Shown here in pieces: positions 18,945 through 38,300 of a stretch of 64,000 nt of DNA. The notes under the pieces were generated by a model. The model saw only the letters and a program-made list of their open reading frames with translations, made no database searches and had not been told where the DNA came from. The translations under genes were made by a program, and so were the position numbers. Every line of letters begins with the position of its first letter. Positions within the stretch are counted from its first letter, which is position 1. The stretch covers positions 24,399,666-24,463,665 of the forward strand of contig OX485807.1 in NCBI GenBank assembly GCA_950295325.1. The letters run 5' to 3'. This DNA comes from Polytrichum commune (lineage: Eukaryota > Streptophyta > Polytrichopsida > Polytrichales > Polytrichaceae).

Positions 18945-20281
18945 CCTATCCCTCCACAGTGGCTAATGTGTCCAGACGCTTCCCATGACACAACAAGACT
19001 CGCTACTGGTTACTGGTGACTAGACTTGTTACTTGGAACTAAGACTGTCTACTGGTGACTCGGACTCTAGACTCTTGACGCGATACTTGCTACTAGACTC
19101 GAGTTACTGTTCTGGTCCGATTCGCTTAGGACGCTTCTCGCTTAGTTCTCGGTTCGTGGTTCTGTCACTTGTAACTAGACTTTTATCAAAATTTACTAAG
19201 TTCTAATTTTTGCAAGTATGGAAATATGCTAAGTAATATCACCATGTGTGTAATGACTAAATCTAGTTATGCTGAGGAAGTGAAAAGTTAATTCACATGA
19301 GAATAGAATTCTTATGATAATGAAGTGTTAAACCCATTTCATTACCCCTTTGAACTATCAATCGACCCTATCGTGACAAACTAAAGATACATCTGACACT
19401 CATTTAGTCTTCCCTGGGTGTTTTTCGAGTTGGAACCCTAGATGAAAAACCTGACTACAGTGGGTATTCTAATTCATGCTATGCCTTAGTATTTAAGATA
19501 TTTTTGCTAAAGATTTTTAGCTAATTTTTGTTTTTTTGTTAATGTAATGTGAGATGCCTTCTATAAACAAAAAGGTATCTCGTAAATATACTGAGAAAAA
19601 ACCTCTTCAATTAAGAACAATAAAAGGTGTTTAGGACATTATGCAGAATGCAACAAGAAAAACAGTATAATCAATTCATGAAAAAAAATTAAAAAATTCA
19701 TTGATGTTGCAAATCCATTCAATGGCCTCATGTGAGCCCAATATGGTGCCCACGAGTGTTCTTAGACCAAAGATACTACTAGGACTTAGACTTTGACGTT
19801 TGCTTTGTATTCAAAAACATAAAAAGAGTGAAGCTTGGTTTTTGGAGTGACAATTGAGTTTAAAGCTAGATAGGAATTAAGGTTACTGGTAATTCTTTGA
19901 GGTTGAATTAAGAGTTGGATAGCTAGTGGGGAAGATTAGAGTTAAGGGTGGGGTGATGATTAGTTGGTTAGTTGAGTAGTGTAGTTTAAATTAGTCCTTG
20001 GCTATTATGTAAGGCTCGTACTTGTTGGATTGGACCGGGTTAATCAAGTTTGGACCAGAGTATTGTCCATTGTGGGCACGGTGGTTAGTCGTTTTAGGGA
20101 AGAGGTCACTGTGACCTAATGAAATTCGGATCCAGGGAAACCGAAGTTCGGTGGCTGGTCCAGAAGTTCTTCTTCTTCAGGTTTTCGGGAATGCGAGAGG
20201 AGAAACTTGGTGTGTGTGTATGCTGGAGGGGAGGCATAAGGTGATGGAAGAAGAAGAGTATTTCGGCAGGTTAGGGGTTGA

Positions 20282-20368
20282 CAGGGTTGGCTATTGTGTC
20301 GTGACGGAGGGTAATCCCGGCATAATGTCGTGCCGTCACGACACGTATCCGTCACGACATTATGCCGG
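20282..20368. repeat. hAT left terminus with subterminal palindrome
   Basis: After the terminal CAGGGTTGGCTAT come GTCGTGACGG and a perfect 16-bp inverted repeat, CCGGCATAATGTCGTG at 20317-20332 with its complement at 20353-20368, with further CGTCACGAC sites between. Clustered short palindromes near the ends are expected as transposase-binding sites in hAT elements; binding itself is inferred. Confidence 0.85.
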
Positions 20369-20513
20369 ATGCTGTCTTTATCCTGACGGACTTGAATTTT
20401 TCCGATTTTTTTGTGTAATTACATTAACCCAATTCGGACACGTAGGATTTACAATGTCCACGTGTGATGACATGTCAGCAAAGTAAAGGTAAAGTGGGGA
20501 AAAATTTACTAGA

Positions 20514-20698
20514 GCCCGTCCGCCTCCCCGTCTGCCCCCGTTCCCAACCCACGTTCCCCCATCCGCTCCCGTTCCCCGCCCCGTCCCCGCCCCGTCCGCT
20601 CCCCCCCCCCTCCGTCCGCTTCCCCGTCCGCCCCCCCGTCCGTCCGTCCGTCCGCTCTCCCCCCCCCCCCCCCCCTCCCCCGTCCGCTCCCCCGTCCG
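20514..20698. repeat. C-rich CpG minisatellite 1
   Basis: Repeats of CCGTCCGC, CCCGTTCCC and long C runs with almost no A. It ends 11 bp before the transposase TATA box. Many CpG sites are kept although surrounding DNA looks CpG-poor. The complementary strand has runs of G that could form quadruplexes. Confidence 0.9.
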
Positions 20699-20708
20699 AT
20701 TCGAATAC

Positions 20709-20714
20709 TATAAA
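20709..20714 (+). promoter_or_regulatory. Candidate TATA box of the hAT transposase gene
   Basis: TATAAA in ATACTATAAATTGAGG lies directly after the C-rich array and about 230 bp before the transposase ATG. A polypyrimidine-CAG acceptor-like site (TTTGTATTTGCAG) ends 14 bp upstream of the ATG, suggesting a 5' leader intron. Confidence 0.55.
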
Positions 20715-20944
20715 TTGAGGGTTCAAGTGCCATTTTTGCCTCCACTGACATAGTGTGTCTCAAGTCTTTTGATTCTCCTTTGAGGAGTGAGGATTGAATG
20801 CGTGAGACCCGAATGCAGAGGATACTTTGTCCAATCTAGTGACTGTGAATTAGGGTTGCCCTTGTGGCACTCTTGAATAGGACCTAGTATGCGATCAAAG
20901 TTACTTGCTCTAACCTGTTTGTATTTGCAGGTTTTGTTGAAGTC

Positions 20945-23900
20945 ATGCCACGCCGAAATGATGCATGGGATCATTGGTACGAGGATAAGGGGATGGTTCC
21001 CGGTAAATCACAAAGGCAGGTTAAATGTAGGTTTTGCCCGTTCGTCATATCTTACCGAGGAAATAGAATGTTGGCCCACCTTGGTTATAGACCTCCTGTA
21101 GGGGGTGCTTGTGATGTTTCCACATGTAGGATGGTTCCCCCGCATATTAGGGTCTTGTTTGAACATTGCGGAGGCATTGTGCCCTTACATGTAGGCATTG
21201 TAAATGAGGACTCTCCAGTGCCAGATATTGTACCTCTGGAGCCTATTATAGCGGACTCCATAATTAGTGAAACAGAGCCTTTGCTTATGTCCCAATCCAC
21301 TCAACATTCTGATGTTGTGATATATGGCACACCTCCTCGTGAACTACGTCAACTCAACATAACGGAGGGATTCAATGTGTCAACAAAACAACTCCTTGAT
21401 AAAGCATGGGCAACGGCTTTTTATGAAGCTAACATTCCTTTCAACATTGTGAGACATCCTGCATTTGTTCATGCTGTGCGTGAAACTGCCCGTCATCGAA
21501 TGCCAGCCTACACACCACCATCGTACAATGCCATCCGTACGAAGTTGTTAACTAATAAAAAAGTTGACCTAGATAGGCAAGTGAAGGAGAAGCTGGGGAA
21601 TTCCGTTGACAAATATGGCGTTACACTATGTTGCGATGGATGGGACAACGTGCAAAACTGACCTCTCCTAAACGTTCTTCAATGTGGCACAAAGGGAGAC
21701 GTTTTCTTGGGTACCATTGACACCACGGGAAATCACAAGGATCATGTCTACGTTGTTGCTCAAATTCAACCATTTGTGGAAAAGGTTGGTCGACATAATG
21801 TGGTCCAAGTTTGCACCGACAATGCCCCAGTTATGGCCTCCGCTGCTCGCGACTTGATTCGAGCAAATCCCGATCTATATTTTCAAGGATGTGCTGCACA
21901 TTGCCTAGATCTCCTCTTAGAAGATTGGGGGAAGGAGGAATGGGTGAAAAAGTTGGTAAAAAAAGCGCGCCATATTTGTGTATTTGTTAAAAACCATCAT
22001 GCTTCTCAAGCTATATTCCGGAGGTTGTCACCAAATCTCTCACTCCGCCTACCTGTAGAGACCCGTTTTGCAACGAACTTCATCATGATAGAACGTCTTC
22101 TCCAAGTACGCAATGCTTTGGAAAGAATGGTGGTTGACGAGGATTGGCCTACTCTAATGCGTGATATGAGGAGGACATCTCGCACCTCTTACATGAAGGG
22201 CTCTGCTGTGCGAAGCTTTATACGTTCTGATGGATTCTGGAACACGTGCAAAAATTTCTTGTATATGGTGATCCCGGTTGTTAAAGCTCTTCGTGTATTT
22301 GATGGCAAGGCGCCTGCAATGGGAATGGCTTGGAGGGTCATGCATGATTTACAAACCCATATTCGTGGATTCAGTAAACCTCCATTTCGCTTAAGCCCTG
22401 AGCTTGCTGCAAATGCTATGCTAACGTTTCAAAATAGATGGAGGTTGATGTTGAATGATCTACATTGGGCTGGAGCGATGTTAAATCTGCTTCTACGTGG
22501 TTGGGCCCCACTCCATAAGGATGACAATTCGAGGACAATCCTAAATCGAGTTCTTCGCAGGCTTGCTCAAGATGAGGACACTTATGTCCAAATCCTCCAC
22601 CAGTACCAAGATTTCCTTGAAAATCGAGGGCCTTTTGCTGATTCTACTGACCCAAGCGTGCATGCCGCACCTCTCCATGAATGGTGGGATGCAATGGGAG
22701 GTGGAGCTAAAGCCCTCCAAACAATAGCAAGACGTATCCTTGCACAAGTATGTTCCGCATCCGCATGTGAACGCAATTGGAGCATGTACTCATATGTTCA
22801 CAACAAGAATCGCAATCGCTTGAAGCATAGTCGTGCCGAGGACCTCGTCTACATATATACCAATAGTAGGCTCATTTGCCATCGGAGGGGCCCAAGACCT
22901 GCGCAATGGTACAAATTGAATGAGGTCCATTCTGACGATGACCTTGACGAAGAAGATGACAACGAAGATGACGTGGATCCAAATGATAGGGCCGGAAATG
23001 ATGATGACAACAATGTTGATGACATCGACTTTGATTTGGATGACCTCGATTCCGAGAATCATGATTTAGAAGATGAGGATGGCCATGGTGGTGATGGAAA
23101 CCTTGGGGTGTTTGATTTTGATGAACCGGATGTCCCCCAACATAACGACGGAATGCATGACGATCATGAGGGGTCTATTGGAGGACCGCCTTTTGAAACT
23201 CTCCACACTGGACAAGGGTTTCGCCCTGACCATAATGTTGCTATGGGGGCAAGTGAGAATGTAGGAATTGAAGTAGATTCCTTGCAACCTCGGAGCGATT
23301 CTCTTTCTTTTGGTGAAGGTGACAATGTACTACCCGCAAATGAGCCAACGCACGTTCAACATGATCCACTTCCAGCCCGAGTACATTCTGAATCCATGGA
23401 CGCCTCCCTCATATCCAACCATCGTATAGAAGATCAAACGCCCAATGTTCTTGAAATACCTACAACTCGATTCCGTGTTCTTCAAAGAACTGCATCCACC
23501 TCTACGGTGCAAGTGCATGCACAAGGTCAACGTCGTCATCTCACTCGAAGTATTGCCAATACTTCTAGATTGGGTGTTTCACGTGCAACTGCGGTGGGTG
23601 CTACTTTGGTTGCTATACACAATGTTTTAAGAAATGTTACTACAGAGGTGTCACGTCGTCAATCTGTTCGTCGACATGTTGTTGAGAACATACCAATTGC
23701 AATTCCATCCGCATCAGTTTTACTTCCACACAGTCAATCCAATGGAACATGTGGACTTGGAGTTGGAGGCGGAAGTATAACGGGGGATGTTTTTATAGAT
23801 GGAAGTAGAGATGAAGTGCACTCAAGTCGTGGTACGGGTGGAGGGCGTCTGAGAACTACGAGAGGTGTCAAACGTACTAGGAAGAGGTATCAGGGAAGAT

Positions 23901-24142
23901 CGCTTCCGTTTACTGCTGAAGACTACAATGAAAATGAGGGTAGACCACATCTAGATGAAAATGGCATACAAGATGCAGAGGGCTCCCGGCCGACCAAGAA
24001 GATAATTTTCTCACAACGTGACCGAGAGTTGCATCTTCGGAGCGCGACTCCCCAAACGGATGATGATTGCAACACAGACGAGTCTGAAGAGGACCCAAGA
24101 TGTGTCGAAGCAAATGATCCCACAGTATGGATTCGAACGTAA
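20945..24142 (+). pseudogene. hAT transposase with BED finger, one premature stop
   Basis: One frame of 1,065 codons from ATG to TAA, broken only by TGA at 21659-21661 (codon 239). The N terminus has a BED-type zinc finger (VKCRFC and, later, a His). Next is a DUF659-like catalytic region with CCDGWDN (residue about 230), VCTDNAPVM (about 290) and the CAAHCLDLLLEDW segment (about 320), then the hAT C-terminal dimerisation motif SASACERNWS and NRNRLKHSRAEDL (about 600-640). The three acidic catalytic positions (two D, one E before RNW) are present. Beyond residue 655 a tail of about 400 residues follows, starting with long Asp/Glu runs, which is unusual because hAT proteins normally end soon after the dimerisation motif. 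The stop fits a CGA to TGA change at a CpG. The frame is otherwise intact, so inactivation looks recent, unless the stop is a sequencing error. Confidence 0.9.
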
Positions 24143-25227
24143 TGATTTTGCACAAATGCGGTATTTTGGTGCTCCCACGTACTCCCATAATTTATTACTT
24201 ACGTCAAAATTGATACAAGTTACAACCTTAGGGCCTTCGGTTTACATTTAGACCACAAAGCGAACGTTACCTTCAAAGTTGTATCATTTTATTATAGTAA
24301 TAAAATTATTTATTGCATGTCTTTCAAAATTTTAAAAATACAATATGATTGTCAACTTGGCATTGCAATTACTCTCCAACAACATGTTATGCCTTTATTA
24401 ATTATTATTTTGTATTATTCTTACTGTGAATGGAGTTTTATGTTTATTTATTGTGTTTCTTAAAGAAAATGATTTTATAAATATTGCAATCCCCTATTGC
24501 TCGATTGTACATGCTTCGTTAGTGACATCCTCTTTTTGAGGACCTTTCTATCCGTTTTATATAATTATATCTTTATGTGGTATTCAATATTGCTATGTAG
24601 TCAATAGTACTTTTGGTTAGACTATCATATGAATTACTAATATTCAAGTAAGTTTTTAAAAGTTTTGAATAACATTAAAACATGTGGCATCCATATGCTA
24701 TCTTTTACACGATCTTATAAATGACAACTTGTCGGTAAATCCTTTTTATATTACATATTATTTGAACATGAAATATGTTCATTATGTCCAAAGTCTTCCT
24801 CCGTTCCTATACAATTTTCTAAATATGGTACAAAAATGCCTAATCCGAATCTGAATCGAGGTCTATTCTAGCTGAAGTAGATCCTCATCGTGCTCGTGAT
24901 GATTCCCCCGCTTCCATGCTTCGCGTTGTTCTACGGGTGAGGTATGGACGACTACCAGGACACAATGGAACGGCATTACGTGGTCTAGGCCCACCATTTA
25001 GCCATCTCAATACCGCATCATCCGCAACTCTATGCAAGAGTGCATCAATTGCAGCCTGTTCTTGTGGTACCCCACCTCTAACTGCAATTCAAATCTCGGA
25101 TCCCGTTCCGTAGGCATGTCATCTGCATCTTCTTCCAAATTATGCTCCGATACTGATTCGAGACCTGCGCATTGTACCAAGGAGGATGAATGCCTCTCTT
25201 TAATTGTCTGCTGGTTGTATCCCAATG
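24143..25227. other. 3' flank of transposase and possible exon of minus-strand gene
   Basis: 24150-24880 is AT-rich with no supported gene and probably holds the transposase 3' end. From 25231 to 25007 a minus-strand frame (74 codons, acidic, LEEDADDMPTERDPRFELQ) is protein-like and lies directly after the stop of the coiled-coil gene in another frame. It could be a further exon or a frameshifted tail of that gene. Confidence 0.4.
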
Positions 25228-26670
25228 TCATTTAAGAGTTTGGTACAAAAATATTTTCAAATCATGATCGGGGGGCTTGTTGGGATACCTGCGGAATGGA
25301 TATTCAAGAACTTGGGTCACATCCCAATGGTGATCTGGGTCGGTCATTTGACGCCCATCGATGCTCCCGTTTGGCAATGTCCACTCATTAGTTATATCCC
25401 ACTTACTAGGGTACATATACTCATCTTTTGGCCATGACGTGAGCATCACGTTCCGCATTCTCTGATTGCGGTTCCATTCTTTCTAGATGCTCTCAAACTC
25501 AGCTTCAAATTGACGAGCCTTGACCATAGCAAGCAATGTGCTTGTCCTCATATTCTTGCGCTCCACAATCGCATCCAATAGGAATTTCTTCAACCTTGCA
25601 TTCTGCTCCTCCAGTCCGCCAATCTTGGCTTCGTGATCAACAACCACTTCATTGACCACTTGAAGTTGTTGTTGCATGTCCACCACCTCCTTTTGCAAAG
25701 CCTCTATCTTTCCTCGCATTACTTCATTCCTCATACATACTTCCAGAGCTTGTGACTTTGCAAGCTTGGCTTCCTGTACAGCTGTGTCCCTCTCTGCTTT
25801 CAAAGACTAAAGGTTAATTGGTGTACTATTTGAACTGCCAGCCTCCCCCATCGTAAGTGTTGCAACTTTATTTTCCAACTCGAAAACCCTTCCTTTATAT
25901 TCACGAATTTCCGCGGCATGTTGCTTACGCAATTCTTCCATTGTGTTCTCCATCGGGTCCGCTCCAAGTTCACCAAGGTTTACCTCGTCTAGGACCTCGT
26001 TAAGCACATCGTTGATCAGGTTGTTGACCTCGACATTTGCCTCCATGCCCTCATCCATATGCTCAAACGCCTTCTCGATGGCCATCTCCATGTCATTGGC
26101 TGGTCGTTTACGATTACGTGGCTTTTTTGGTTCCCGACCCTCTGGAATTGGGGCCCCAGGCTCATCCACTAGTCTAGGATTCCTTCTAAACCACTCCGGA
26201 ACTGGAGTGTATGGAATATCTGGTACTGTGTATTTAGTGAATGCAATTCCAATACCCCCAAATTTCTGACCATGCAGAGCAGCCAAACTTGACCAATCCA
26301 CCCTAACTCGCAACACGTGCTCCGCATACATCATACACGCCACCGACTTTGGAATTGCACTTTTGGGCCATCTATCCAAATTGGAGATACTTCTAAGTAT
26401 CGTTAGGAATCTCCATTTTGCATCCACGTCATCAAACTGCATATAACTTGCACTAATGGCCTTGCAATGTCGCTCGTGACAAGGTCTTGGCCACAACTGA
26501 TCAAAGTGAGGGAAACCCACGTACTGCATTGCAGTCTTCGCTGACCACGGTTGTGGTACATTCTCCCAACCTGCCCTAGCTTTTCGGGTGTTGTCATCAT
26601 AAACATCCCACTCCAACCCAGCGGCCTTGCGTACATGTGATCTGTGACAACCTGATCCTCCACTTGCCAT
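25228..26670 (-). pseudogene. Coiled-coil cargo protein of the hAT element, two TAG stops
   Basis: From ATG at 26670 (MASGGSGC...) one minus-strand frame continues to TGA at 25228-25230, 480 codons, interrupted by TAG at 25807-25809 and 25483-25485. The frame is also open upstream to about 26718, but without another ATG. The N-terminal 170 residues look globular with many Trp (LEWDVYD, PHFDQLWPRPCHERH, DAKWRFLTILRSI). A Pro/Arg/Lys-rich basic stretch (REPKKPRNRKRPAND) may be a nuclear signal. About 200 residues of predicted coiled coil follow (TMEELRKQHAAEI, EKLEEQN-like heptads), then a Trp- and Pro-rich end (WPKDEYMYPSKWDI). Family unknown. Both stops could come from CAG to TAG changes. Orientation is opposite to the transposase. 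It may be an accessory protein, but no function is shown. Confidence 0.65.
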
Positions 26671-27088
26671 GTCTGGAAATCCTTCACTTGCCGTATCCAC
26701 CCAAATTGTAGTTTCTAATTCTAATCTAGAACTCTAATTTTTAAATTACTAATTGCACTTCATAATAGTGGTACAAAACATCCAAGCATACACTTCAAAA
26801 TAGTGTTGCTGTGGAATTAGTTCAAAAATGTCGTTAAAAATTAAACTACAAAAATTCAGCACACCCTTCGAGCACCCCGCTACTAGCGCTCACGCAGAGG
26901 CCAGTTGACTAGGCGCGTCACAAGGAATATGCCAAAAAGGCAATATGCCACGTCACAAGGGAACGGGTCCACGTGGATCACACCCACAAACAGGTTAGTA
27001 AAAAAAGTATAAAAGGATCCCAGAAAATGGATCCTTAACTCCTCCGAGCACCTCGCTACCCCGCACTCTGTAGTAGAGGAGGGTCGTC
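26671..27088. other. Putative promoter/leader of the minus-strand coiled-coil gene
   Basis: This lies between the gene's ATG and C-rich array 2. It contains GTATAAAAGG at about 27008 on the plus strand and a GGATCC-containing short inverted repeat (GGATCC...GGATCC around 27016-27035). No other coding signal is seen. Confidence 0.35.
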
Positions 27089-27448
27089 TGGTCGTCCGCA
27101 CCCGTTCCCTCCCGTCCGCGCCCGGTCCCCCCCCAGTCCGCACCTGTTCCCGACCCCGTCCGCACCCGTTCCCGCCCCCGTCCGCACCCGTTCCCTTATG
27201 TCCGCCGCCACGTTTCCTACGTCCTCACCCGTTCCCTTACGTCCGCCCCCTCGTTCCCTACGTCCGCCCCATGTTCCACTCCATCCGCTCCCGCGTTCCC
27301 CCGTCCGCTCCCCTCCGTACGCTCCCATGTTCCCCTCCGTCCGCCCTATTTCCCTTACGTCCGCTCCAATATTCCCATAAGTCCGCTCCATGTTCCCCTA
27401 CGTCCGCTTTAGAGTTCCCATCCGTCCGCTCCCGCGTTCCCCTTGAAT
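27089..27448. repeat. C-rich CpG minisatellite 2
   Basis: Imperfect units of GTCCGC(C/A)CC and CGTTCCC, spaced 20-25 bp, C-rich on the plus strand like the other three arrays. It lies upstream of the minus-strand coiled-coil gene, so relative to that gene it reads G-rich. Confidence 0.9.
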
Positions 27449-27460
27449 CTGCACTTTTTA

Positions 27461-27598
27461 TTTTTTTTTGGAAGTTTGGACATAGTCTCGGTTTTTTGGC
27501 TCTCAAAACTTCATATGAAGTCCAAAAAATGAGTTCTTGGTATCCATGGATAGGTAATGAAGTCCTCTACATGAATATGCAATAATATTTCTACTGCA
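27461..27598 (+). repeat. Shared hAT module, copy 1
   Basis: About 138 bp beginning TTTTTTTTGGAAGTTTGG and ending ATTTCTACTGC, nearly identical to 31754-31913 and 36250-36412 and in the same orientation. It includes TTCATATGAAGT, TATCCATGGATAGG and CTCTACATGAATATGC. Here it follows a C-rich array, whereas the other two copies precede one. It has no coding potential. Confidence 0.9.
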
Positions 27599-28001
27599 GA
27601 TTCCCGCGTCCCCCCATCTAACTTAGGCCCTTTGCAAATAATATATGTGACATTAAATATCATAACCAGTGTACTTATCCACACAAAACTAATGAAGGAT
27701 CCCTCAAGCAACAAAGTAACCAATGTAGTATGATGACCAACAAATTATCACCCCTATGGAGATTTTTTATCTATACAACAATTTGTCGTAAGGACAAATA
27801 CACTAAAATACACATATTTTCTATTCTATATATAATATTAAAATTTCAAAATTTGTAAGACAACGATGAACATGCATAGAAGTATGCAATAATAAGCGGT
27901 TGCAATATCATAGAAGTGGTACAACATATTGTACAAGTAATAACTTTATTATTGTGACGACGGTACAAACCATGCACGATTTAATATTCCACTTCATTCC
28001 G

Positions 28002-28556
28002 TCATGGCAACCTCGTAGATGCTTGTGGCTTCCGTCGAGGGTCCATTTTTGGAAGAGGATTCCGTCGAAGTAAATCAACATAGCTAATCGTTCGGTCTTT
28101 CATCCGTTCCTTCAATGGTAGCCGATGAGGCGATAATCCTCTCCTCTTCCTACGAAAAGACAAAGTCCTTGAAGATTCTTTCACTACCTTGACATCTTCA
28201 ATGTCGATTGAATTGTCATCCACATGCCCGGGCTTCACCCAAATATCCACGCTCAAATCAACCACATCATTTGGATCTCCTCCCACGCTTTTTGTTAGGT
28301 CCTTCTCCACTGCATTGATCTCGAATTTCGCCGCATATCGTCGTTGGTCCTCCTCCACCCTCAACTTCCATGCTTGTGTAGATTGTGAGAAGGGGGTCAT
28401 AACATAGTCATCACGAAATCGATCTCTACCACTTCTCTCATCTCTTTCACGCTCGGATGATGGATTGAATGGAATATCGGGTTCACCTAAATTTACTATC
28501 TCCTCATCACATCCTAGACCCTCAAACATGTCTCTCTTCTTTCCCATCCTATCCAT
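28002..28556 (-). CDS. Charged 184-residue protein of the hAT element, unknown
   Basis: An intact ATG-to-TGA frame. The protein is highly charged: MDRMGKKRDMFEGLG at the start, an Arg/Asp/Glu-rich stretch at about residues 35-50 (SERERDERSGRDRFRDD), an acidic middle (DDNSIDIEDVKVV) and a basic end (RRKRRGLSPHRLPLKERMK, then RRNPLPKMDPRRKP) that could bind nucleic acid or be a nuclear signal. No family was recognised. It is on the same strand as the coiled-coil gene, 1.3 kb upstream of it, with C-rich array 2 and module copy 1 between. It could be an exon of a larger gene or an independent cargo gene. Confidence 0.5.
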   Translation of the reverse strand: MDRMGKKRDMFEGLGCDEEIVNLGEPDIPFNPSSERERDERSGRDRFRDDYVMTPFSQSTQAWKLRVEEDQRRYAAKFEINAVEKDLTKSVGGDPNDVVDLSVDIWVKPGHVDDNSIDIEDVKVVKESSRTLSFRRKRRGLSPHRLPLKERMKDRTISYVDLLRRNPLPKMDPRRKPQASTRLP

Positions 28557-28826
28557 GATACTCTATTCTCGTTATATGTATGAGTCTAAATGCTCTACTT
28601 ATATACTGAGCTCAAAGGACTTTATGAAATTTAAAATATTTGATGTAATCCAAGATGTAGAGGATCCAATTCTCGTTGGTAAGATAAAGACAACACAATA
28701 GGAATAAAAAGAAAGTTGGTAAAGTCAAAAAGTTAGTTGCATTTTTTGAAAAAATCCCCCGACACCCGCATTGGAGACCTCTTTGATACCTCTTTGAAGC
28801 TTCTATATTTGATGGGTTTTCTTTTC

Positions 28827-29359
28827 ATTCAACAAATCACATGTTTATGCTTCAACCTTAGTGGTTCGTATGGTTTCACAACCCACACGCATTCGAATAT
28901 CATTTTAATTCAACAAAGTACATATTTGTGCTTCAACCTTTCTGGTTCAAATGGTTTCACAACGCATTTCAGGCATCCGAATGCCATTTTCATTCAACAA
29001 ATCACATATTTGTACTTCAACCTTAGTGGTTCGTATGGTTTCACAACCCACATGCATTCGAATGTCATTTTAATTCAACAAATTACATATTTGTGCTTCA
29101 ACCTTTCTTGTTCATATGGTTTCACAACGCATTTCAGGCATCCGAATGTCATTTTCATTCAACAAATCATATATTTGTGCTTCAATCTTAGTGGTTCGTA
29201 TGGTTTCACAACCCACACGCATTCGAATGTCATTTTAATTCAACATAGTACATATTTGTGCTTCAACCTTTCTGGTTCATATGGTTTCACAACGCATATC
29301 AGGCATCCGAATGCCATCTTCATTCAACAATTCACATATTTGAGCTTCAACCTTAGTGG
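28827..29359. repeat. 165-bp dimeric tandem repeat
   Basis: ATTCAAC starts subunits at 28827, 28908, 28992, 29073, 29157, 29238 and 29322, alternating spacings of 81 and 84 bp, so the true unit is a 165-bp dimer in about 3.2 copies. Both subunit types contain TGCTTCAACCTT and TATGGTTTCACAAC. As 165 is divisible by three the array is open in one frame, which explains its long artificial frame. It is interrupted at 29360 by a transposon and resumes at 30083-30165. Confidence 0.9.
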
Positions 29360-30074
29360 CTCGGGGGGTGCACTGTACTAAACATGTACGAGTATACGTG
29401 AATGCACAGGAGGGGTATTGATTTGGACCTTGCCGTATTACGTATACATATGGCATACATGTTATAATTTATAGTTACGTACATATATGGAAGGCCTTTA
29501 AAAATTATACAATAATTGTACTTGTATGGTATTGTTACTATACTACATATCATAAGTTTTCATATTGGATGCGGAGGAAGTTTTGTAATCGTTGGGTGGA
29601 GTATAGGGATCCAATTGACTTGATGGACCGTCCATCAAACGTGGACATTGGTTTATATTGGTATCAAAAAGGGGCTAACAACAAGTGGACATGTGATCTT
29701 ACTGATCATTTGATGGTAGACTTAGAGACAATAATTGCATTGGCTATAATGACATATATTGGTGAATCAAATGTTTATGAGTTACATCCGGGAGATGAAA
29801 AAGTTTTCAACGACTTTGCTGATGAAAGCTAGGATATTTTGTTATACATATTATAGGGGTTGATTATTGTTCAAAATTATATTTGTATACTTATGTTGAT
29901 GACTATATATGAATGGATGTTTTTTGTGTATACATATTGTCACTTGTATATTTATTATTGCAATTGTATGTGTATTACTTCATTTCACAAAAAATAACTT
30001 GTATATAGGGGGTTTTTAGAATATGCAGTGAACGCACGTGATTCTAGGTTTTAATGAAAGGTGCACCCCCCGAG
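29360..30074 (+). mobile_element. 715-bp inverted-repeat transposon with 8-bp duplication
   Basis: The ends CTCGGGGGGTGCAC (29360-29373) and its exact complement (30061-30074) form a perfect 14-bp inverted repeat. The flanks are both CTTAGTGG (29352-29359 and 30075-30082). The tandem repeat on the two sides joins seamlessly if the element and one CTTAGTGG are removed, confirming the insertion. The 8-bp duplication suggests hAT-type transposition, but the ends do not match the enclosing hAT element. It carries an 87-codon frame. Confidence 0.85.
29569..29832 (+). CDS. 87-residue protein of the 715-bp element, unknown
   Basis: An ATG-to-TAG frame. Features are a basic Trp-containing start (MRRKFCNRWVEYRDP), a central YWYQKGANNKWTCDLTDH and an acidic end (HPGDEKVFNDFADES). 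A degenerate relative sits in the second copy of the element at about 30840-30975 (same order: YW.., T/KW.C/., HLMVDL). It may be a captured host exon fragment or the residue of a transposase; neither can be shown here. Confidence 0.4.
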   Translation: MRRKFCNRWVEYRDPIDLMDRPSNVDIGLYWYQKGANNKWTCDLTDHLMVDLETIIALAIMTYIGESNVYELHPGDEKVFNDFADES

Positions 30075-30082
30075 CTTAGTGG

Positions 30083-30165
30083 TTCGTATGGTTTCACAAC
30101 CCACACGCATCCCCTTGCCCTTTCATTCAACAATTCACATATTTGTGCTTCAACCTTCGTGGTTC
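30083..30165. repeat. Continuation of the 165-bp dimeric repeat
   Basis: Matches the TATGGTTTCACAACCCACACGCAT and ATTCAACAATTCACATATTTGTGC parts of the array left of the inserted transposon, then ends in a telomere-like tract (AAACCCTAAATCCTAAACCC, 30167-30198). Confidence 0.85.
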
Positions 30166-30166
30166 A

Positions 30167-30198
30167 TAAACCCTAAATCCTAAACCCTAAACCCTACG
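30167..30198. repeat. Telomere-like CCCTAAA tract
   Basis: About four degenerate units of the plant telomere repeat (AAACCCTAAATCC, TAAACCCTAAACCC). It stands at the edge of the tandem repeat, so it may mark a repaired break and not a chromosome end. Confidence 0.7.
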
Positions 30199-30394
30199 TC
30201 ATTCCAAATTGCTATCACATACGTGCTATTATTTTGTTCTCACACTCATGTAGAAGTGTTTCCATACATGGTTTGAAGGTTTAGGTTTCCAGCTTTCCAA
30301 CGAACCCACCCGCTTTTTTTTACGATGCCTACAGCGAAAGTTAAACATTCGCAAATCGCGAGGACTACTTCAAGTTGGCACAATCTCTACTTAG

Positions 30395-30483
30395 ACATAT
30401 AACTTATGGTATACATTGGGGTTTTTAGAAGGGGTCATGAACGCACGTGATTCTCAAACATAATGTAGAGTGCATCCCCCGAG
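30395..30483 (+). mobile_element. Right-end fragment of a second copy of the 715-bp element
   Basis: GGGTTTTTAGAAG, ATGAACGCACGTGATTCT and GTGCATCCCCCGAG match the last 90 bp of the element at 29360-30074. The left part of this copy is absent. Confidence 0.7.
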
Positions 30484-30631
30484 TTCCCATAGGCTTTATA
30501 AAGATATCTTACCAACACCTTACACAAATTATAACATTCTAGAAAAGCACATTAATCTGGTCCACATTGATATTAAACTAGGGAATTGGTGTGGGCTTAA
30601 ATTTAATGTGGCCCACATTAGTGATCATTTA

Positions 30632-30975
30632 GGAGGGGTGCACTATACTAATTCCGTATGAATATATGTGAGTGCACAAAAGAGGTATTGATTTGAACTT
30701 TGTTGTATTATGTATACATATTCTTTACAAAATTATAAGTTGTAGTTATGTAAATATATAGAATAATTTAAAAAAATATACAGCATCTCTACTAACTTGT
30801 ATGGTAGTGTCACTAGATTTTATAGAATAAGGTTTATTTTATTTTAGTATTGGCTTAAACTGGTACATAAAAAGAACCAACCACAAGTGAACATACGATC
30901 TTACATATCATTTGATGGTAGACTTCAAAACAATAATTGCATTAGCTTTTATGACATGTATTACAAATCAGATTA
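30632..30975 (+). mobile_element. Left-half fragment of a copy of the 715-bp element
   Basis: From GAGGGGTGCACTATACTA onward it matches the left half of the 29360 element, including GAGGTATTGATTTG and a decayed version of its 87-codon frame, and stops near 30975. It lies 148 bp right of the right-end fragment, so the two ends face each other in inside-out order. Confidence 0.7.
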
Positions 30976-31239
30976 TGGGAGGATTGAATGGAAACATATG
31001 CTTAGGGACTTGGAAAAAGGGTCGGACGTGGCCTACCATGACATTCTTAACAAATTTGATTTTATTTGGGGGGTCAAAGGTCTTATTGTGACCCGTAGCA
31101 ACTTAGTCCCTACTTGGAAGGATAGGCCTCAAATGAGCATTATTTATAGATTTCCACTTAGGCTACGCTGTTTCGGCTGGGTTGGTTGTATTTTCAATTT
31201 GTGCCAAAAAAAAGAATAAGACATGTATTGCAAATCTAA
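30976..31239. other. No recognised feature
   Basis: Short open frames only. The DNA joins a truncated transposon copy to a fold-back element. Confidence 0.4.
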
Positions 31240-31745
31240 GGGCCGGTTCACAATATGGCCAAACTTTGAGAGGTTCAACATTTGGACCAATGAAAATGTT
31301 GAAATGCCCAAAGTCCGTCCTCTCGGCCTTCACACTAGAGGCCGAAGTCCAAAGGACGTCGTCTCCAAAAGAGCCTAGGTGGCAACACTTTTAGGAAGTT
31401 ATGGCGCCAAGAGTTCGGCCTCTCGAGCAAAGTTTGGGTATAGCAAAATGCTCAACCCAAACTTCCGTCGAGAGGCCGAACTTTTTTTTCATCAAAATAA
31501 TCAATCATTGACAAGATCTTGGCCGTTAGATTGGAGGGGTTATTTTGAGCAAGGAATAAAGTGGCATGCTCCTTTGAGTTTGGACTTTGCGCTTGGCCTT
31601 TGGAGGCTTCACACTATGCCCAACTAAGGCTACCCTTACTATATTTTATTGGTTATTTTCAGTTCATTTCTTTGGACTCTCAACAAAGTTGGGCCACTCA
31701 ATCGCACGGCCTCTCAACTTGGACGGCCATAGTGTGAACTCGGTC
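31240..31745. mobile_element. Fold-back/MITE-like element
   Basis: The left end GGGCCGGTTCACAATATGG and the right end, read inward, GACCGAGTTCACACTATGG match over about 35 bp with a few changes, both continuing to TTGAGAGG or TTTGAGAGG. A strong internal hairpin occupies 31412-31482. The ends are GC-rich and near-palindromic. No clear target duplication was found. Confidence 0.65.
31412..31482. repeat. Internal hairpin of the fold-back element
   Basis: The 28-base arm 31412-31439 (AGTTCGGCCTCTCGA...) pairs with 31455-31482 (...TCGAGAGGCCGAACT), with two or three mismatches in the middle and a 15-nt loop. Confidence 0.85.
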
Positions 31746-31753
31746 ATTTACAC

Positions 31754-31913
31754 TTTTTTTTTTAAAGTTTAGACATAGTATCCGTTTTTTGGCTCTAAAA
31801 AATTCATATGAAGTCCAAAAAATGAGTTCTTGGTATCCATGGATAGGTAATGAAGTCCTCTACATGAATATGCAATAATATTTCTACTGCCAGAAAATAT
31901 ATGGCCGCAATTC
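31754..31913 (+). repeat. Shared hAT module, copy 2
   Basis: Same sequence as 27461-27598 and 36250-36412, extended by AGAAAATATATGGCCGCAATT, and leading straight into C-rich array 3. It lies upstream of the kinase gene. Confidence 0.9.
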
Positions 31914-31914
31914 C

Positions 31915-32352
31915 ACGTTGTTCCCCTGCCCCCTTCAACCCCGTTCCCTCCCGTCCGCCTCACGTTCCCCACCCATCCGCCCCACGTTCCCCTCCGTGCG
32001 TTCACGTTCCCTCTCGTCCGCTCACCGTTCCCTTCCGTCCGCCCGCGTTCCCTCTCGTCTGCTCCCCGTTCCCTTCCGTCCGCCCTCGTTCCCTACCGCG
32101 TTCTCCTCCCGTCCGCCCCACGTTCCCTACCGTCCGCCCCATGTTCCCTCCCGTTCCCTCCCGTCCGCGCTCCGTTCCCTTCCGTCCGCGCTCCGTTCCC
32201 TTCCGTCCGCCCGCGTTCCCTCCCGAGTTCCCCTACGTCCGCCCACTCGTTCCCTCAGTCCGCCCCCTCGTTCCCTCCGTCCGCCCACTCGTTCCCTCAG
32301 TCCGCCCCCTCGTTCCCTCCGTCCGCCCCCGCGTTCCCACGTTCCCCACATG
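31915..32352. repeat. C-rich CpG minisatellite 3
   Basis: About 20 units, most regular at 32225-32340, where 21-bp units alternate (CGTTCCCTCCGTCCGCCC and CGTTCCCTCAGTCCGCCC forms). It lies between module copy 2 and the kinase promoter. Long reading frames across it, rich in Ser, Arg and Pro, are a composition artefact. Confidence 0.92.
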
Positions 32353-32414
32353 TCCTTTTTGTGCCCCATGTCAAATCCGACCGGGATCCCATAATGATTG
32401 TGCACCCCTTTGCC

Positions 32415-32423
32415 TATATAAAG
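32415..32423 (+). promoter_or_regulatory. Candidate TATA box of the kinase gene
   Basis: TATATAAAG in TGCCTATATAAAGCCGTGG, 63 bp after the C-rich array and 205 bp before the kinase ATG. This repeats the array-TATA-gene order of the transposase gene. Confidence 0.65.
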
Positions 32424-32627
32424 CCGTGGGGCTTTAGTTCCCCTCATTTTCCTCTCCTCCCACCACAAAGGGACCCGAGACCTTATTGCCGTCCCAAGGA
32501 CAGCGGCACCGCGCGGGTCTCAGGGGGTTTGGGAGGGCAGGGCAAATTGTGGGGGAACCCTCGCAATTTTTTTTCCAGATTCACTTGCTGATTTCTACAT
32601 TCACTCACTCACGCGGTTTTTTTCACG

Positions 32628-35521
32628 ATGGAGGGGGAGGACATTGCTCCTTACCAACACGAGGATACGAGGGTGCACCGTGCTTGGCTCCAAAGCACTC
32701 CATCTGCACATACTGGAGAGGGTACGGGAAGCGATGCCGAAAGTGGAAGTACTGCAGCACGTCCCCCACGTCCAGATCCTTTTCGGTTTGGCGAAGAGTT
32801 CTTTGTTGTTGGTCATTCAGGAGGCAACCAAACACGTGGAAGCCGTGGAACACGTGGGAGTCGGGGAAACAGTGGCCATAGAGGGAGAACAGGAAGGGGA
32901 CCAAGCTCAGGCAGTTCCACAGATATAAATGCAGCCACTCGTGGTGAGTCCGTGCCACCACGATCTCCGACACGGCAGACATCAAGACCGGAGAGCCCTG
33001 CACGTGATGTACCTCAGGGTTCGGAGCATGGTGAAAGATGGGGACAGAAACGCCCAGCAGTTTCGGAAGGGACGGAGGAGGGGTCCGCGGTATCAGGTTC
33101 GCAATCGAGGAAAAAGAAAAATAGAGGCAAACGCGACCCGCGGATCGATGAGGCTCGAAACCATTGTAGGGTCGTGCTGTTGGAGTGGTTTAGAAATAAC
33201 AGCATGGTTTATTTGGAAAAAAATACCTCAATGATGGTACAAAGGGTTTAGAGTTGGTGAGGAACGGTTTGATGCTTATTCTCACGGAAGCCACGGCTAG
33301 AGCGGAGTTTGAAGAAGCTAGGGGCATGAGCGATTGGGACACTTGGATTGAACAACAAGCCAGGGAAGCAATCTACAATCCAACAATGGCATATGATGCT
33401 CTGCATCCTGGCGAGGGAAATAGTAGTGGCAGGAAGTCCGAGCTGTACATGAAGCTAGAGAATTGGAAAAGAGGCGTAATAGCAGCAAAAGGAACATCCG
33501 CCCGCAACCTTCCCATTTTTATTGACAGGCAGATGGCAGACAACATTGCCACTCAGGGCCGGCAGGGTGTCATATGGTTGCCTAGGAATGCAGAGATCAA
33601 AGCCTTGGATAAGGAATTCTTCCAAGGGACCTTCGGAGTGGTGAGGAGAGTCACAATTCATGGAGCATCATTCATCCCTAGCTGGATAGAGTGGGCTGGG
33701 AAGACCATGAAGGCCACGAATAGTTTGGAGAACCGAAAGGAGCGTTCAGTTGAAGCATTGGCGTGTCCAGTAGATCATCCTGGGGTAATCAAGCTACAAT
33801 ACCTCAATATGAAAACATACGAATCCTATTCGATGTGGTGGAATAGAGGCTCCTTGAAGAACATGAGGATCTATGACTTCAGCGTTCCGGAAACCCACGA
33901 GCATACAATCCTTCAAATGCCTAGGCCAGACTTTGAAGCACGGAAACGGTTGGTAGTATATCGAAGGCATCGAGCTTATTTGGCATGGGCTCTAATGTGC
34001 ATTGTGGATGTAGTGCACAAGCATGACGTGTTGCACAATGACCTTAATCCCAACAATGTCATGCTGCATTTCCCACAAGATCGTGATAACACGGTTTACA
34101 TTGGTGTGTGTGATTGGGGCATGGCATCCTGGGGAGATGAAGACGCACCCTCCAACTATGGAAGAGATTCAGTGGATGAGATGAACAAGCACAAAGCAAA
34201 ATACAACTGTTGTCGCGCACCTCTCCATGAGGAATGCCCGAAACACCATGGGCACAAGGGGGACCCCGGAGTGACACCCGGGACTTGTGGCGCCGTTGGT
34301 GAGAGGGCCCAAGTGATCCTAGTGTGGGTGAGGGCCCCGGGCGTTGGGAACGCCTCCCACCCACGAAGACTAGGAGGCACAAGGGTAAGGCCATGAGTTA
34401 TGCGTAGCTCATGGCGTGGTGATTCTAGAAAGCTCAAGAACACCTCAATCGGAGGTGTGAGCTAGGAGTTATGGCCATTTGAGTGGGGCGCTGTCCCGGG
34501 ACAGCGCCCTGGTACAGCAGTGCATGGGAGTGATTCCAGGGACTGCCAAGGTTCAAACAGGCATAACTTCCTCAATACTTGCCCGAATGGGGCAAGTGAG
34601 GAGTCCATCGGCATCTACGTGAAGCGTAGATGAAGATGGAGTGGTTGGTTGTTATGATCAGACATCATACAAGGAAGTTATGATGGTCTGAAGCTGCTGG
34701 GGGGTTCTAGGCCCAGCAGCTAAAGGAAAATGTCCACTTGGCCCCAACTCTTGGTAGAGAGACAAGAGGTTGGTTGACGGTGGGGTAGGGGCCCCGCGTG
34801 AAGTCCTAGAGGCTTATATGGGTGAGGTGGTGTGGCCTCACCCACCCGAGGCCGAACGGCACGGCCTCCATGGGCATTGGCCCAATGTGAGGCCATAGTT
34901 GCCTAGTATGCTTCGGGTTGTTGTAGTGTTGCTCTGGCAACGCGATGATCAACATGGGATTGGACTTCCATGGAGGGAAGTCCGCATCTAGGAATGGGTT
35001 ACCGATTAAGGGGTGAGTCCCGATAGTAAAGTAGGAGGGTTGGTTCCCTCTTATGAACTAAAAGGTCCGGGGTAGGAGGAGCTAACCATTAGCATGGCGG
35101 AATGCGAATGGTTAGCGCTCGTAACCTTTGCTAGAAATGAAAATTGGCAAGATTGTCAAGGGGGGCTAGCAAGGGTTGCGACAACTGTGCTAGTCCAGAA
35201 TTATTCCATGTACGAGGACAACGTGGAACATCCACCTCTCCGGTGAGGATGGCTCGGAAACATAGGCACACATTTCTCTCGGAGTCCTTCTCAGTGGGTG
35301 CTTTGGCAAGGAAGATTTATGCCAAGGATTCGACTTCCCCCTTGTTTCAGCTAAATAGTGATCCAAATGGCTTGAAGATGCGGTTTGAGTTAGCATTGGA
35401 TTCATTGACGAAGACCAATCCAGCGGAAAGGTCAACCATCACACACGTAGTGAACATGTTGAAGTCCCCTCCATACAACATGGTTAACCCGACAATGTGC
35501 TTCCGTGACACTGCAAAATAG
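32628..35521 (+). pseudogene. Atypical protein kinase carried by the hAT element
   Basis: From ATG at 32628, about 190 residues are Ser-, Gly- and Arg-rich and probably disordered, with a basic patch (SRKKKNRGKRDPR). After an A run at 33217-33223 the frame shifts by one base and continues at about 33224. The kinase domain follows: glycine loop FFQGTFGVVRRV (about 33619-33654), AGKTMK as the likely ATP-lysine segment, catalytic loop LHNDLNPNNVML (HRD changed to HND, with catalytic Asp and following Asn kept; about 34032-34067) and CDWGMAS in place of DFG. At 34210 a 973-bp solo LTR interrupts it. Beyond it, from 35189, the frame resumes exactly with ASPELF (the APE-like motif), then C-lobe helices (FSVGALARKIY, NPAERSTITHVVNML) and TAG at 35519-35521. 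Catalytic residues look retained, so the gene may have been active before the frameshift and insertion. Substrate unknown. Confidence 0.85.
34211..35183 (+). mobile_element. Solo LTR, TGTCGC...GCGACA family, copy 1
   Basis: 973 bp from TGTCGCGCACC to AGGGTTGCGACA, flanked by ACTGT on both sides (34206-34210 and 35184-35188). It is nearly identical to the inverted copy at 37322-38300. It contains no coding region. It split the kinase gene between Cys and Ala codons ahead of SPELF. Confidence 0.93.
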
Positions 35522-36249
35522 ATTTTTTTTGTTTTTTTTGCAGCAATTTTGAATCATACCAATTTTGTAACCGTTGGAGATGTAAATAAAGCCATCATTT
35601 TTTCATACAAAACTTGTATATTGTATGAGGTTTATGGATCTTAGTGCAATGTTCATACTTCATGAGGCTTTTGCTCCATAATCGAGAAGAAGTCTATAGG
35701 AGGCTAACCAAGGTTCTCGCCTCTCGTGAGGCCACATCGTTCTTTCACATCGTTGTTATCACATCCATGTGCTAAGTTCAAGTTAACTATAGTTTTTTGT
35801 GATATGTCTTGCCAAAATGCAGTTACCTATATTTATTCTAATTTTGGTATGCCACAAAATGTAGTCAACTATAGTTATATCTAGTTAACTAAAGTTGAGC
35901 ACAATATTGCAATAGTTATATCAGTTGTACACGTGATCCTAAACATCTCTAAATGTTAACTTTCTTCTACTCCCCACATATTGCACACTATAAATGTTAA
36001 ACGTGTTAACTGTTAACAAAATGGTACTCCCTTCTTTGTAAATCTGACTCTATAAACGTTAACGGATGAAATACAACCATAATATGGATGATAAAAACTA
36101 CACATCCAGTTACATTGATTCATATTCACTCGTGATTTGTAAACTTGATATTGAATAAAGTTTTGATTGGGTGTGCAATTTTATGAATGGTATTCTCTCA
36201 CAAGGACTCTTCACAATTGCTTATATTTATATTTATATAATTCAGAAAC
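35522..36249. other. Kinase 3' flank, no further gene
   Basis: AT-rich DNA with repeated AGTTAACTATAG-like words (about 35780-35910) and GTTAACTG/TGTTAAC words (about 35955-36065), possibly a weak subterminal repeat. A poly(A)-like AATAAA occurs at about 35586. No coding feature is supported. Confidence 0.4.
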
Positions 36250-36412
36250 ATTTTTTTTTGGAAGTTTGGACATAATCTCGGTTTTTTGGCTCTCAAAAAT
36301 TCATATGAAGTTCAAAAAATGAACTTCTTGGTATCCATGGATAGGTAATGAAGTCCTCTACATGAATATGCAATATTATTTCTACTGCCAGAAAATATAT
36401 GGCCGCAATTGC
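36250..36412 (+). repeat. Shared hAT module, copy 3
   Basis: Nearly identical to copies at 27461 and 31754, same orientation, followed by C-rich array 4. With copy 2 it brackets the kinase gene as a direct repeat about 4.5 kb apart. Confidence 0.9.
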
Positions 36413-36415
36413 ACG

Positions 36416-36620
36416 CTATTCCCCTCCCCCCCGCTCCCCTCCGCGTTCCCCCGTCCGCTCCAGCGTTCCCCCCCATTCCCAACCCCCGTCCGCTCCAACC
36501 CCCTCCGTCCGCCCCACGCCCCACCTCCGTCCGCTCCACCCCCTCCCCCGTCCGCTCCACACCCCCCCCCCCCCCCGTCCGTCCGCTCCACCCCCCTCCC
36601 CCGTCCGCCCCACACCCTCC
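36416..36620. repeat. C-rich CpG minisatellite 4
   Basis: CCGTCCGCTCC-type units and C runs up to about 14, ending about 190 bp from the palindromic right end of the hAT element. Confidence 0.9.
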
Positions 36621-36809
36621 TTAGTCATATTTTTCTACTTTGATTTTAACAGAATGATAAACACAATGGCAAAATGGTTTACTTGGCAAGGGAAATATGC
36701 ACACCCACGTCGGCGTTTTCTGCCACATAGGACGCCACCTTGGCAAGAAGGTAAGTATTTTACCCACCCTAGTCCATTCACCCTATGTTGACCCTATATG
36801 GACCCTATT

Positions 36810-36890
36810 GTGTCGTGACGGAGGGGTCCGTCACGACACGACACGACATGACGGCACGACACCGTCATGACGTCGCGATAGACAACCCTG
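36810..36890. repeat. hAT right terminus with subterminal palindromes
   Basis: GTGTCGTGACGGA at 36810-36822 pairs with TCCGTCACGACAC at 36827-36839. Further ACGACACGAC, CGGCACGAC and CGTCATGACG words run to the terminal ATAGACAACCCTG at 36878-36890. The same core word, CGTCACGAC, is found at the left end. Confidence 0.88.
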
Positions 36891-37321
36891 GGGGTTGAGG
36901 AGCGATGGCCACTCCACTAAATTAGACTACAGCTTGGAAGGATGTCCACTGGGTCTCACAAGCTACAGAGTGCGGTGAAGTTGGGCAGCAGCTCACGAAT
37001 AATCCACGTGAGCAATGCAGAAGTGGTAGCTGGGAAATTGAGCGCAAAAGAAGACAATGAGCTGAAATCAGAAAGGAGTAAGGGGCAATGATGGAATGCC
37101 CTACCTCTGCCGCAACACATCATTTTTGAGCGTTGGTTCAACTGCGGAATTCCTACTTCATTCTGAATTAATCTCTTGGCTACTGCCGCGGCATTCGCTC
37201 CTAGAGGCAAGCTGAGATGCATGCGCCTTGGACTGAATCTTGGGAAAGCTCATCACCTCAACTGGAAGGGACTGGTGGATAGCAGGAAAGGGGATCAGAA
37301 CCCATTTCACCACAGGCTGAG

Positions 37322-38300
37322 TGTCGCAACCCTTGCTAGGTCCCTTAACAATCTTGCCAATTTTCGTTTCTAGCAAAGGTTACGAGCGCTAACCCTTCGC
37401 ATTCCGCCATGCTAATGGATAGCTCCTCTTACCCCGGACCAATAGTTCATAAGAGGGAACCAACCCTCCTACTTTGCTTTCGGGACTCAACCCTTAATCG
37501 GTAACCCATTTCCCCAATGTGGACTTCCATCCATGGAAGTCCAATCCTATGTTGATCATTGCATTGCCGGAGCAACACTACAACAACCCGAAGCATACTA
37601 GGCAACTATGGCCTCACAATAGGCCAAAGCCCATGGAGGCCTTGCCGTTCGGCCTCGGGTGGGTGAGGCCACACCACCTCACCCACATAAGCCTCTAGGA
37701 CTTCACGCGGGGCCCCTACCCCACCGTCAACCAACCTCTTGTCTCTCTACCAAGAGTTGGGGCCAAGTGGACATTTTCCTTTAGCTGCTGGGCCTAGAAC
37801 CCCCCAGCAGCTTCAGACCATCATAACTTCCTTGTATGATGTCTGATCATAACAAACTACCACTCCATCCTCATCTACGCTTCACGTAGATGCTGATGGA
37901 CTCCTCACTTGCCCCATTTGAGCAAGTCTTGAGGAAGTTATGCCTGTTTGAACCTTGGCAGTCCCGGGAATCACTCCTAGGCACTGCTGTACCAGGGCGC
38001 TGTCCCGGGACAGCGCCCCACTCAAATGGCCATAACTCCTAGCTCACACCTCCAATAGAGGTGTTCTTGAGCTTTCTAGAATCACCACGCCATGACTCAT
38101 GAGCTACGCATAACTCATGGCCTTACCCTTGTGCCTCCTAGTCTCCGTGGGTGGGAGGCGTTCCCAACGCCCGGGGCCCTCACCCACACTAGGATCACTT
38201 GGGCCCTCTCACCAACGGCGCCACAAGTCCCGGGTGTCACTCCGGGGTCCCCCTTGTGCCCATGGTGTTTCGGGCACTCCTCATGGAGAGGTGCGCGACA
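37322..38300 (-). mobile_element. Solo LTR, TGTCGC...GCGACA family, copy 2
   Basis: 979 bp, near-identical to 34211-35183 in opposite orientation. CTGAG flanks both sides (37317-37321 and 38301-38305). It sits in the right part of LTR E, outside the hAT element. Confidence 0.93.

Follow-up and report, generated by a model that had tools for sequence, protein, structure and literature searches.

The hAT superfamily of DNA transposons is usually described in terms of one-gene elements: known autonomous hATs are about 2–5 kb long and carry one transposase gene, their terminal repeats follow a CAGGG-type consensus, and subterminal repeats occur in members of the superfamily. Here, we analyze a stretch of 64,000 nucleotides (hereafter, the window) from the moss Polytrichum commune (assembly GCA_950295325.1, 407.8 Mb, seven large chromosomes; contig OX485807.1, chromosome C5, positions 24399666–24463665). 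It contains, as a single unit, a hAT element of 16,609 bp (window positions 20282–36890) that encodes a transposase, a protein kinase, a coiled-coil protein, and a small protein of unknown function. We consider it likely that this is a decayed copy of a high-copy, four-gene hAT family, in which the kinase and its partners are accessory genes kept by selection on the element.

The moss element resembles Ac, hobo, Tam3, and the DUF659-type plant hATs in its 8-bp target-site duplication, CAGGG-type ends, DUF659 and hATC domains with catalytic blocks, repeated subterminal motifs, and small derivatives with the same ends, but differs from them in its size (13.7–16.6 kb), in three further genes including a kinase, and in a tail of about 425 amino acids after hATC. 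A functional analogy only is provided by the VANDAL group of Mutator-like elements (MULEs), plant DNA transposons which are reported to carry VANC anti-silencing proteins beyond the transposase, the VANC targets often forming tandem repeats (Hosaka et al., 2017; PMC5735166); in contrast, the moss element has a hAT rather than a MULE transposase, together with a kinase and two unnamed genes. The 14-kb ToxhAT/ToxTA element of fungal wheat pathogens was once called a large gene-carrying hAT; it is a single-copy element, since reclassified as probably a non-autonomous Tc1/mariner with a TA duplication (PMC12506042), and therefore it sets no precedent for a large hAT. Giant transposons (Helitrons, Mavericks, Teratorn) are likewise large DNA elements with accessory genes but use other enzymes, and the words hAT and kinase were not found in the main text of their review (PMC6431247). 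A kinase-bearing hAT was not met among the titles and abstract openings of the literature searched, most of the subscription literature being outside this scope.

An earlier note, made from the window sequence only, had proposed matched ends, a perfect 8-bp duplication, and palindromes at both ends. All three are confirmed: the left tip CAGGGTTG (20282–20289) and the right tip CAACCCTG (36883–36890) lie between perfect copies of GGGGTTGA, and CGTCACGAC palindromes are readable at each end. CAGGGTTG alone is no rarity in the window (three occurrences, 2.39 expected); the 20-nt core of the 21-bp end sequence matches the window twice, at the two element ends only, and is absent from 100 shuffles. 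The exact duplication beside paired ends, taken with the 20-nt end sequence, is not a chance coincidence, and accidental pairing of the ends of two elements is ruled out by the duplications and by other copies. Both hAT hallmarks are thus present, namely, short CAGGG-type terminal repeats (CAGGGTTG at both ends) and an 8-bp target duplication, which is perfect in six out of seven elements with both ends read and is also seen in a short derivative, D1. The observed/expected CpG ratio is 0.79 inside the element and 0.46 and 0.51 in the flanks, with the GC-rich arrays described below contributing to the difference.

The suggestion that the element may represent a family of large cargo-bearing hATs, to be looked for through copies with the same ends, holds well. 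A 26-nt left-end pattern (one free base) has 393 matches in the genome and a 20-nt right-end pattern (one ambiguous base) has 308, the reversed controls giving none, and seven elements were read with both ends. All four gene-like regions have homologs or copies elsewhere. The genome tables scored part of the candidates (117 of 211, 129 of 158, 81 of 255, and 150 of 498; one left-end table, 40 of 596), and the resulting counts are lower bounds: at least 111 places for the kinase (120 matches, nine second fragments dropped), 17 of them having a 708-codon frame and a stop-free match; at least 81 for the transposase (81 of 82 matches used), 35 of them without a stop in the match and with a frame of at least 1079 codons; and at least 118 for the small gene at 65% identity or more (148 of 151 matches used). 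The coiled-coil gene has 172 matches; from those listed, 108 places were used after short fragments had been dropped. The genes co-occur as had been proposed: a kinase lies within 26 kb of 71 out of 81 transposase places (random mean 1.18, maximum 5), a coiled-coil match lies within 14 kb of 75 (in 74 cases downstream on the opposite strand), and all three other genes are found near 59. Similarly, a coiled-coil match is found within 12 kb of 84 out of 111 kinase places (random mean 0.68, maximum 4), and the small gene, within 12 kb of 93.

On chromosome C1, 21 of the 77 exact left ends have a kinase or coiled-coil gene downstream (18 have both), and an exact left end precedes 16 of the 26 kinase places by no more than 20 kb (random mean 0.55, maximum 4). 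Pairing of these left ends with 56 exact right ends yielded 38 pairs: 20 short ones (740–2,726 bp) with no cargo match, 15 of 13.7–19.7 kb (13 with both kinase and coiled-coil genes, two with neither), and three of about 23 kb, all with both genes; none of the 38 was sized between 2,726 bp and 13.7 kb. End pairs of 3–5 kb with the cargo located elsewhere, which would have spoken against a large element, are accordingly missing among the C1 pairs, and 16 of the 18 long pairs hold both the kinase and the coiled-coil gene. With 39 of the 77 left ends unpaired, the evidence for these size classes comes from exact ends on a single chromosome. The 23-kb pairs lie in a locally repeated stretch, and their left and right ends may come from different copies. 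At C1:21863788–21971964, three near-identical kinase/coiled-coil/transposase places lie within about 90–110 kb, probably due to local segmental duplication of an element.

The seven elements with both ends read span 13.7–16.6 kb and comprise the window element, E1 (15,702 bp, duplication CACCAAGT), E7 (16,266 bp, AAACGGGG), E3b (15,956 bp, GATGGGTC), E4 (15,260 bp, GTTGTGGA), and EB (13,737 bp, TGCCTCAT), all with perfect duplications, and E6 (16,020 bp). The loci are a non-random sample, six having been picked for a kinase near a coiled-coil match and EB for a kinase near a left end. Recognizable pieces of all four genes, some of them interrupted, are present in all eight elements considered (these seven and E3). 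E1, E7, and E3b have the kinase in inverted orientation, and minus-strand array sites beside the inverted kinase suggest that the promoter array turned together with it; in EB, the order is left end, kinase, small gene, transposase, coiled-coil gene, right end. Gene content is therefore kept while gene order changes, in loci chosen for these genes. EB is inserted in a long terminal repeat (LTR) of the same family as the solo LTR of the window element; its joined flanks with one 8-bp copy align continuously to uninterrupted LTRs, which provides a paralogous empty site. Thus, the empty site that had been proposed as a check was obtained for EB but not for the window insertion. Among short derivatives, D1 (1,384 bp) retains the ends and GC-rich repeats and has an 8-bp duplication, TGGTCAAC; for D2, the right end could be aligned, the tip was not found by the pattern used, and the duplication was unscored; and the derivative in which E3b is nested, about 1.07 kb long, has an outer duplication with seven out of eight positions matching. 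Given the target duplications and the empty site, a four-gene unit of about 14–17 kb has inserted as one piece, repeatedly, and short derivatives have inserted as well.

The open frame of the transposase gene spans 20888–24142 (coordinates of the genes and other features are given in Table 1). The protein matches DUF659 (E-value 9.9e-24) and, above the cut-off, hATC (PF05699; 2.2e-10), and its DGW, TDN, and CERNW blocks, which we take to carry the hAT DDE catalytic residues, align with those of relatives; an N-terminal BED zinc finger (PF02892) remains below the cut-off (E-value 0.11). Since the domains are those of hAT, assignment to KDZ, Starship, MULE (including the VANDAL type), or piggyBac is ruled out. 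The acidic tail after hATC (residues about 400–826 of the frame starting at 21662, window positions 22862–24142) ends in a TDESxEDPRC-type motif; it is found in the closest relatives and is missing from one shorter gymnosperm protein in the alignment. This tail is a candidate kinase substrate. The protein database contains 106 transposase homologs, the best one being 92% identical and uninterrupted over 1020 aa; a homolog from the moss Ceratodon purpureus is 63% identical over half of the query, one from a metagenome-assembled genome (MAG) named as a bacterium is 46% identical, and those of gymnosperms, Klebsormidium, and apple are more distant (about 26–35%).

The kinase had been described as retaining its catalytic residues. 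The residues are indeed there, 5′ of the solo LTR, but an intact gene in the window copy has to be rejected: one base within an A-run shifts the frame, and the LTR is inserted at the APE motif. As the transposase and coiled-coil genes are also broken, the window copy is unlikely to be autonomous. There are 128 kinase homologs in the protein database; the best one aligns with 83% of the query at 88% identity. In an alignment of 55 homologs chosen from these, with gaps scored as misses, all 55 have the ATP-binding Lys, 50 the catalytic Asp, 51 the Asn, 51 the DxG Asp, and 48 its Gly. The AlphaFold model has a mean predicted local distance difference test (pLDDT) score of 85, and its 50 best PDB structure matches are protein-kinase entries at 12–18% identity, with modest TM-scores (0.35–0.43 by query) and a root-mean-square deviation of 7–12 Å. 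The model and the kept residues agree with a bilobal eukaryotic protein kinase fold with the Lys, HxD Asp, Asn, and DxG Asp. The window piece scores 26.3 with PF00069 (cut-off 31.7) and 24.1 with PF01636 (APH; slightly above the cut-off of 23.2), and the kinase profile matches 45 PDB sequences, all of them kinases and mostly over short stretches (best E-value 2.3e-05). The kinase is divergent, and its phosphotransfer activity is putative. A scan of viral contigs with the kinase profile gave ten pattern stretches and no relative. A kinase from a MAG named as the lichen fungus Gyalolechia (53% identical over 76%) lies on a 1.6-kb contig; we take it, as well as the transposase from the bacterium-named MAG, for plant DNA in mixed samples.

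The solo LTR belongs to a family of about 975 bp (TG…CA), also seen in the EB flanks, in E3, in the stretch around the C7 small-gene locus described below, and in other stretches read. A second copy (37322–38300), oppositely oriented and flanked by a separate duplication, CTGAG, is found immediately beyond the element; the two are about 2.1 kb apart across the right end of the element.

The coiled-coil protein has a conserved N-terminal domain without a Pfam name, 56 homologs in the protein database, and a poor structure model (mean pLDDT 63.5). The small gene predicted in the earlier note exists, but its length is 186 codons stop to stop rather than 184 residues; an NCBIfam search gave no useful name. 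A second group of its relatives, at 49–54% identity, occupies 30 places, 17 of them on C4 and one near a kinase. One relative, at C7:7653533–7654054, adjoins a 596-aa open reading frame and a weak match (E-value 0.005, below the cut-off) to PF13963, a transposase-associated domain of the CACTA type; unrelated transposon families may therefore have the small accessory gene in common. A 207-aa open frame in the window (13725–14348, minus strand) resembles, by eye only, the 596-aa frame of this distant C7 locus.

The hexamer CGTCCG occurs 41 times on the plus strand and once on the minus strand of the element, and not at all in 47 kb of the flanks. The sites form four clusters, one in each subterminal region, one upstream of the coiled-coil gene, and one upstream of the kinase gene. 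Only 12 sites are present in E4 and 13 in EB, so that the main family may have seen an expansion of the arrays. In analogy to the subterminal repeats of other hATs and to the target repeats of VANC (PMC5735166), the arrays may be bound by the transposase or by an accessory protein.

Table 1. Features of the hAT element in the window (window positions).
Feature	Positions	Strand	Remarks
Target-site duplication GGGGTTGA, left copy	20274–20281	.	perfect, 8 bp
Left terminal inverted repeat	20282–20298	+	8 bp perfect; 14/17 against right end, by eye
21-bp end sequence, left copy	20291–20311	+	direct repeat with 36805–36825; part of end palindromes
Left subterminal CGTCCG-type GC-rich array	20517–20700	+	10 sites, all on plus strand
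hAT transposase gene	20945–24142	+	ATG at 20945; DUF659, hATC, catalytic blocks kept; one in-frame stop (21659–21661); long acidic C-terminal tail
Coiled-coil gene	25228–26670	-	conserved N-terminal domain of unknown function; in-frame stops at 25483–25485 and 25807–25809
Internal GC-rich array upstream of coiled-coil gene	27093–27444	+	11 CGTCCG sites
186-codon gene of unknown function	28002–28562	-	frame open in window copy
165-bp tandem repeat block	28822–29363	+	common to other copies
137-bp module	31754–31890	+	direct copies at 27461–27597 and 36252–36388
Internal GC-rich array upstream of kinase gene	31942–32350	+	12 CGTCCG sites
Protein kinase gene	32628–35521	+	frameshifted near 33220; split by solo LTR
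Solo LTR (TG…CA)	34211–35183	+	973 bp; 5-bp duplication ACTGT; at kinase APE motif
Right subterminal GC-rich array	36424–36620	+	8 CGTCCG sites
21-bp end sequence, right copy	36805–36825	+	direct repeat with 20291–20311
Right terminal inverted repeat	36874–36890	-	outermost 8 bp match left end
Target-site duplication GGGGTTGA, right copy	36891–36898	.	perfect, 8 bp

Elsewhere in the window, direct repeats at 2221–2713 and 39636–40136 (300 bp at 98% and 126 bp at 95%), about 37.4 kb apart, flank the region containing the element. An Rfam scan gave nothing at the gathering thresholds, and a tRNA scan (bacterial code) found none.

The cargo had been thought to be acquired or evolved by this element. 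The extra genes are real, but they seem to have belonged to the lineage for a long time and not to be a recent acquisition. Kinase and transposase matches in the protein database have six contig sizes of at least 5 kb in common (62 and 43 sizes compared), whereas a jitter control gave one or more shared sizes in 123 out of 5000 trials and never more than two; kinase and coiled-coil matches have two in common. The rows compared were 120 of 128 for the kinase (those listed), 56 for the coiled-coil protein, and 92 of 106 for the transposase, excluding any whose contig size was missing or on the scale of a chromosome. From the equal sizes we take kinase and transposase to be on the same contigs, which suggests that they share contigs at 35–69% protein identity; among these six, the contigs of 6,480 and 15,563 bp are short, and the rest are long enough for several elements. 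Divergence of the kinase is correlated with that of the transposase over the window and the six contigs (Spearman coefficient 0.81, 21 pairs; 62 out of 5040 permutations as high). Moreover, the database protein P0002 joins the tail of the window transposase (84% over 119 aa) to the kinase. Against the older E4 copy, the mean ratio of nonsynonymous to synonymous substitution rates (dN/dS) is 0.46–0.50 in the transposase (C-terminal part, 0.50) and 0.50 and 0.41 in two parts of the coiled-coil gene; in the kinase, the core has 0.55 and the N-terminus 0.75, and the small gene has 0.58. Among main-family copies, the range is 0.37–0.57 for all but the small gene.

Several observations weigh against a four-gene family kept by selection on the element. 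The duplication of E6 matches at only four out of eight bases, and the right end of E3 was not found in the stretch read, where all its genes are present. On C1, 56 of the 77 exact left ends have no listed cargo, 10 of the 26 kinase places are not preceded by an exact left end, and two of the 18 long end pairs have neither a listed kinase nor a coiled-coil gene. In the incomplete genome tables, 22 of the 81 transposase places are without at least one of the three genes, 10 of them without a listed kinase, and one, C4:42334541, is without both the kinase and the coiled-coil gene. In the database comparison, contigs are identified by their size, the transposase and coiled-coil matches have no contig size in common, and contig 239112 is discordant: for the transposase, its nearest match is contig 85863 (81%), but for the kinase it is contig 559682 (80%). 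Finally, dN/dS values of 0.4–0.75 are only moderately below 1 and blurred by post-insertion decay, which pushes them towards 1, so that constraint is suggested and unproven; for the small gene, the main-family value of 0.87 is close to neutrality.

One alternative is a single capture of host genes by an ancestral hAT, after which the genes have hitch-hiked through amplification without helping the element. In addition to the near-neutral small gene, the loosely evolving kinase N-terminus and the broken kinase of the window copy fit such passengers, and the accessory function is one that we infer. On the other hand, gene content is kept despite the changed order and the inverted kinase (again, in loci chosen for these genes), apparently even at 35–69% protein identity on other contigs, and the kinase catalytic residues stay conserved. 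Neutral cargo should vanish from some full-size copies, yet no 2.7–13.7 kb class is seen in the 38 C1 pairs. We therefore regard mere passengers as rather unlikely. That the kinase and its partners benefit the plant and are kept by host selection, like Starship cargo, is decidedly improbable: uninterrupted frames in many copies would agree with it, but about 100 similar copies, divergence correlated with that of the transposase, and arrays upstream of the genes fit selection at the level of the element better, and we know of no host effect of these genes. Least plausible of all is the spread of the block by nested insertions or segmental duplication instead of as one transposon. The 137-bp modules and GC-rich arrays repeated inside the element, the nesting of E3b in a short derivative, and the three near-identical C1 places point that way, but six insertions with the same ends and different perfect 8-bp duplications contradict it, as does the EB empty site.

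Hence, we favor accessory genes of the element, and we infer that they probably regulate transposition or silencing. The transposase would cut and paste the whole unit, binding the terminal repeats and CGTCCG arrays, and the most likely role of the kinase and its partners would be to raise transposition or expression of the element. The kinase might phosphorylate the transposase, for example, its long acidic tail; alternatively, the accessory proteins might counter silencing by the host at the arrays, which are found in front of two of the genes as well as at the ends. Regulation of the transposase or resistance to silencing is preferred over host benefit because the genes follow the divergence of the transposase and no intermediate full-coding size class is present among the pairs examined. 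For a stronger version, in which the kinase, the coiled-coil protein, and the third protein are obligatory in a long-lived hAT lineage and control the transposase or block silencing at the end and promoter arrays, we see about even chances.

The kinase may therefore have a function within the transposon instead of being a one-time passenger. About 100 large copies keeping the kinase and two further genes, with no intermediate size among the examined pairs, suggest that cut-and-paste elements can evolve multi-protein systems. In moss genomes, element kinases may be miscounted as host genes or hidden by repeat masking, and this family offers a direct route to ask whether a transposon controls its own movement or host silencing by phosphorylation.

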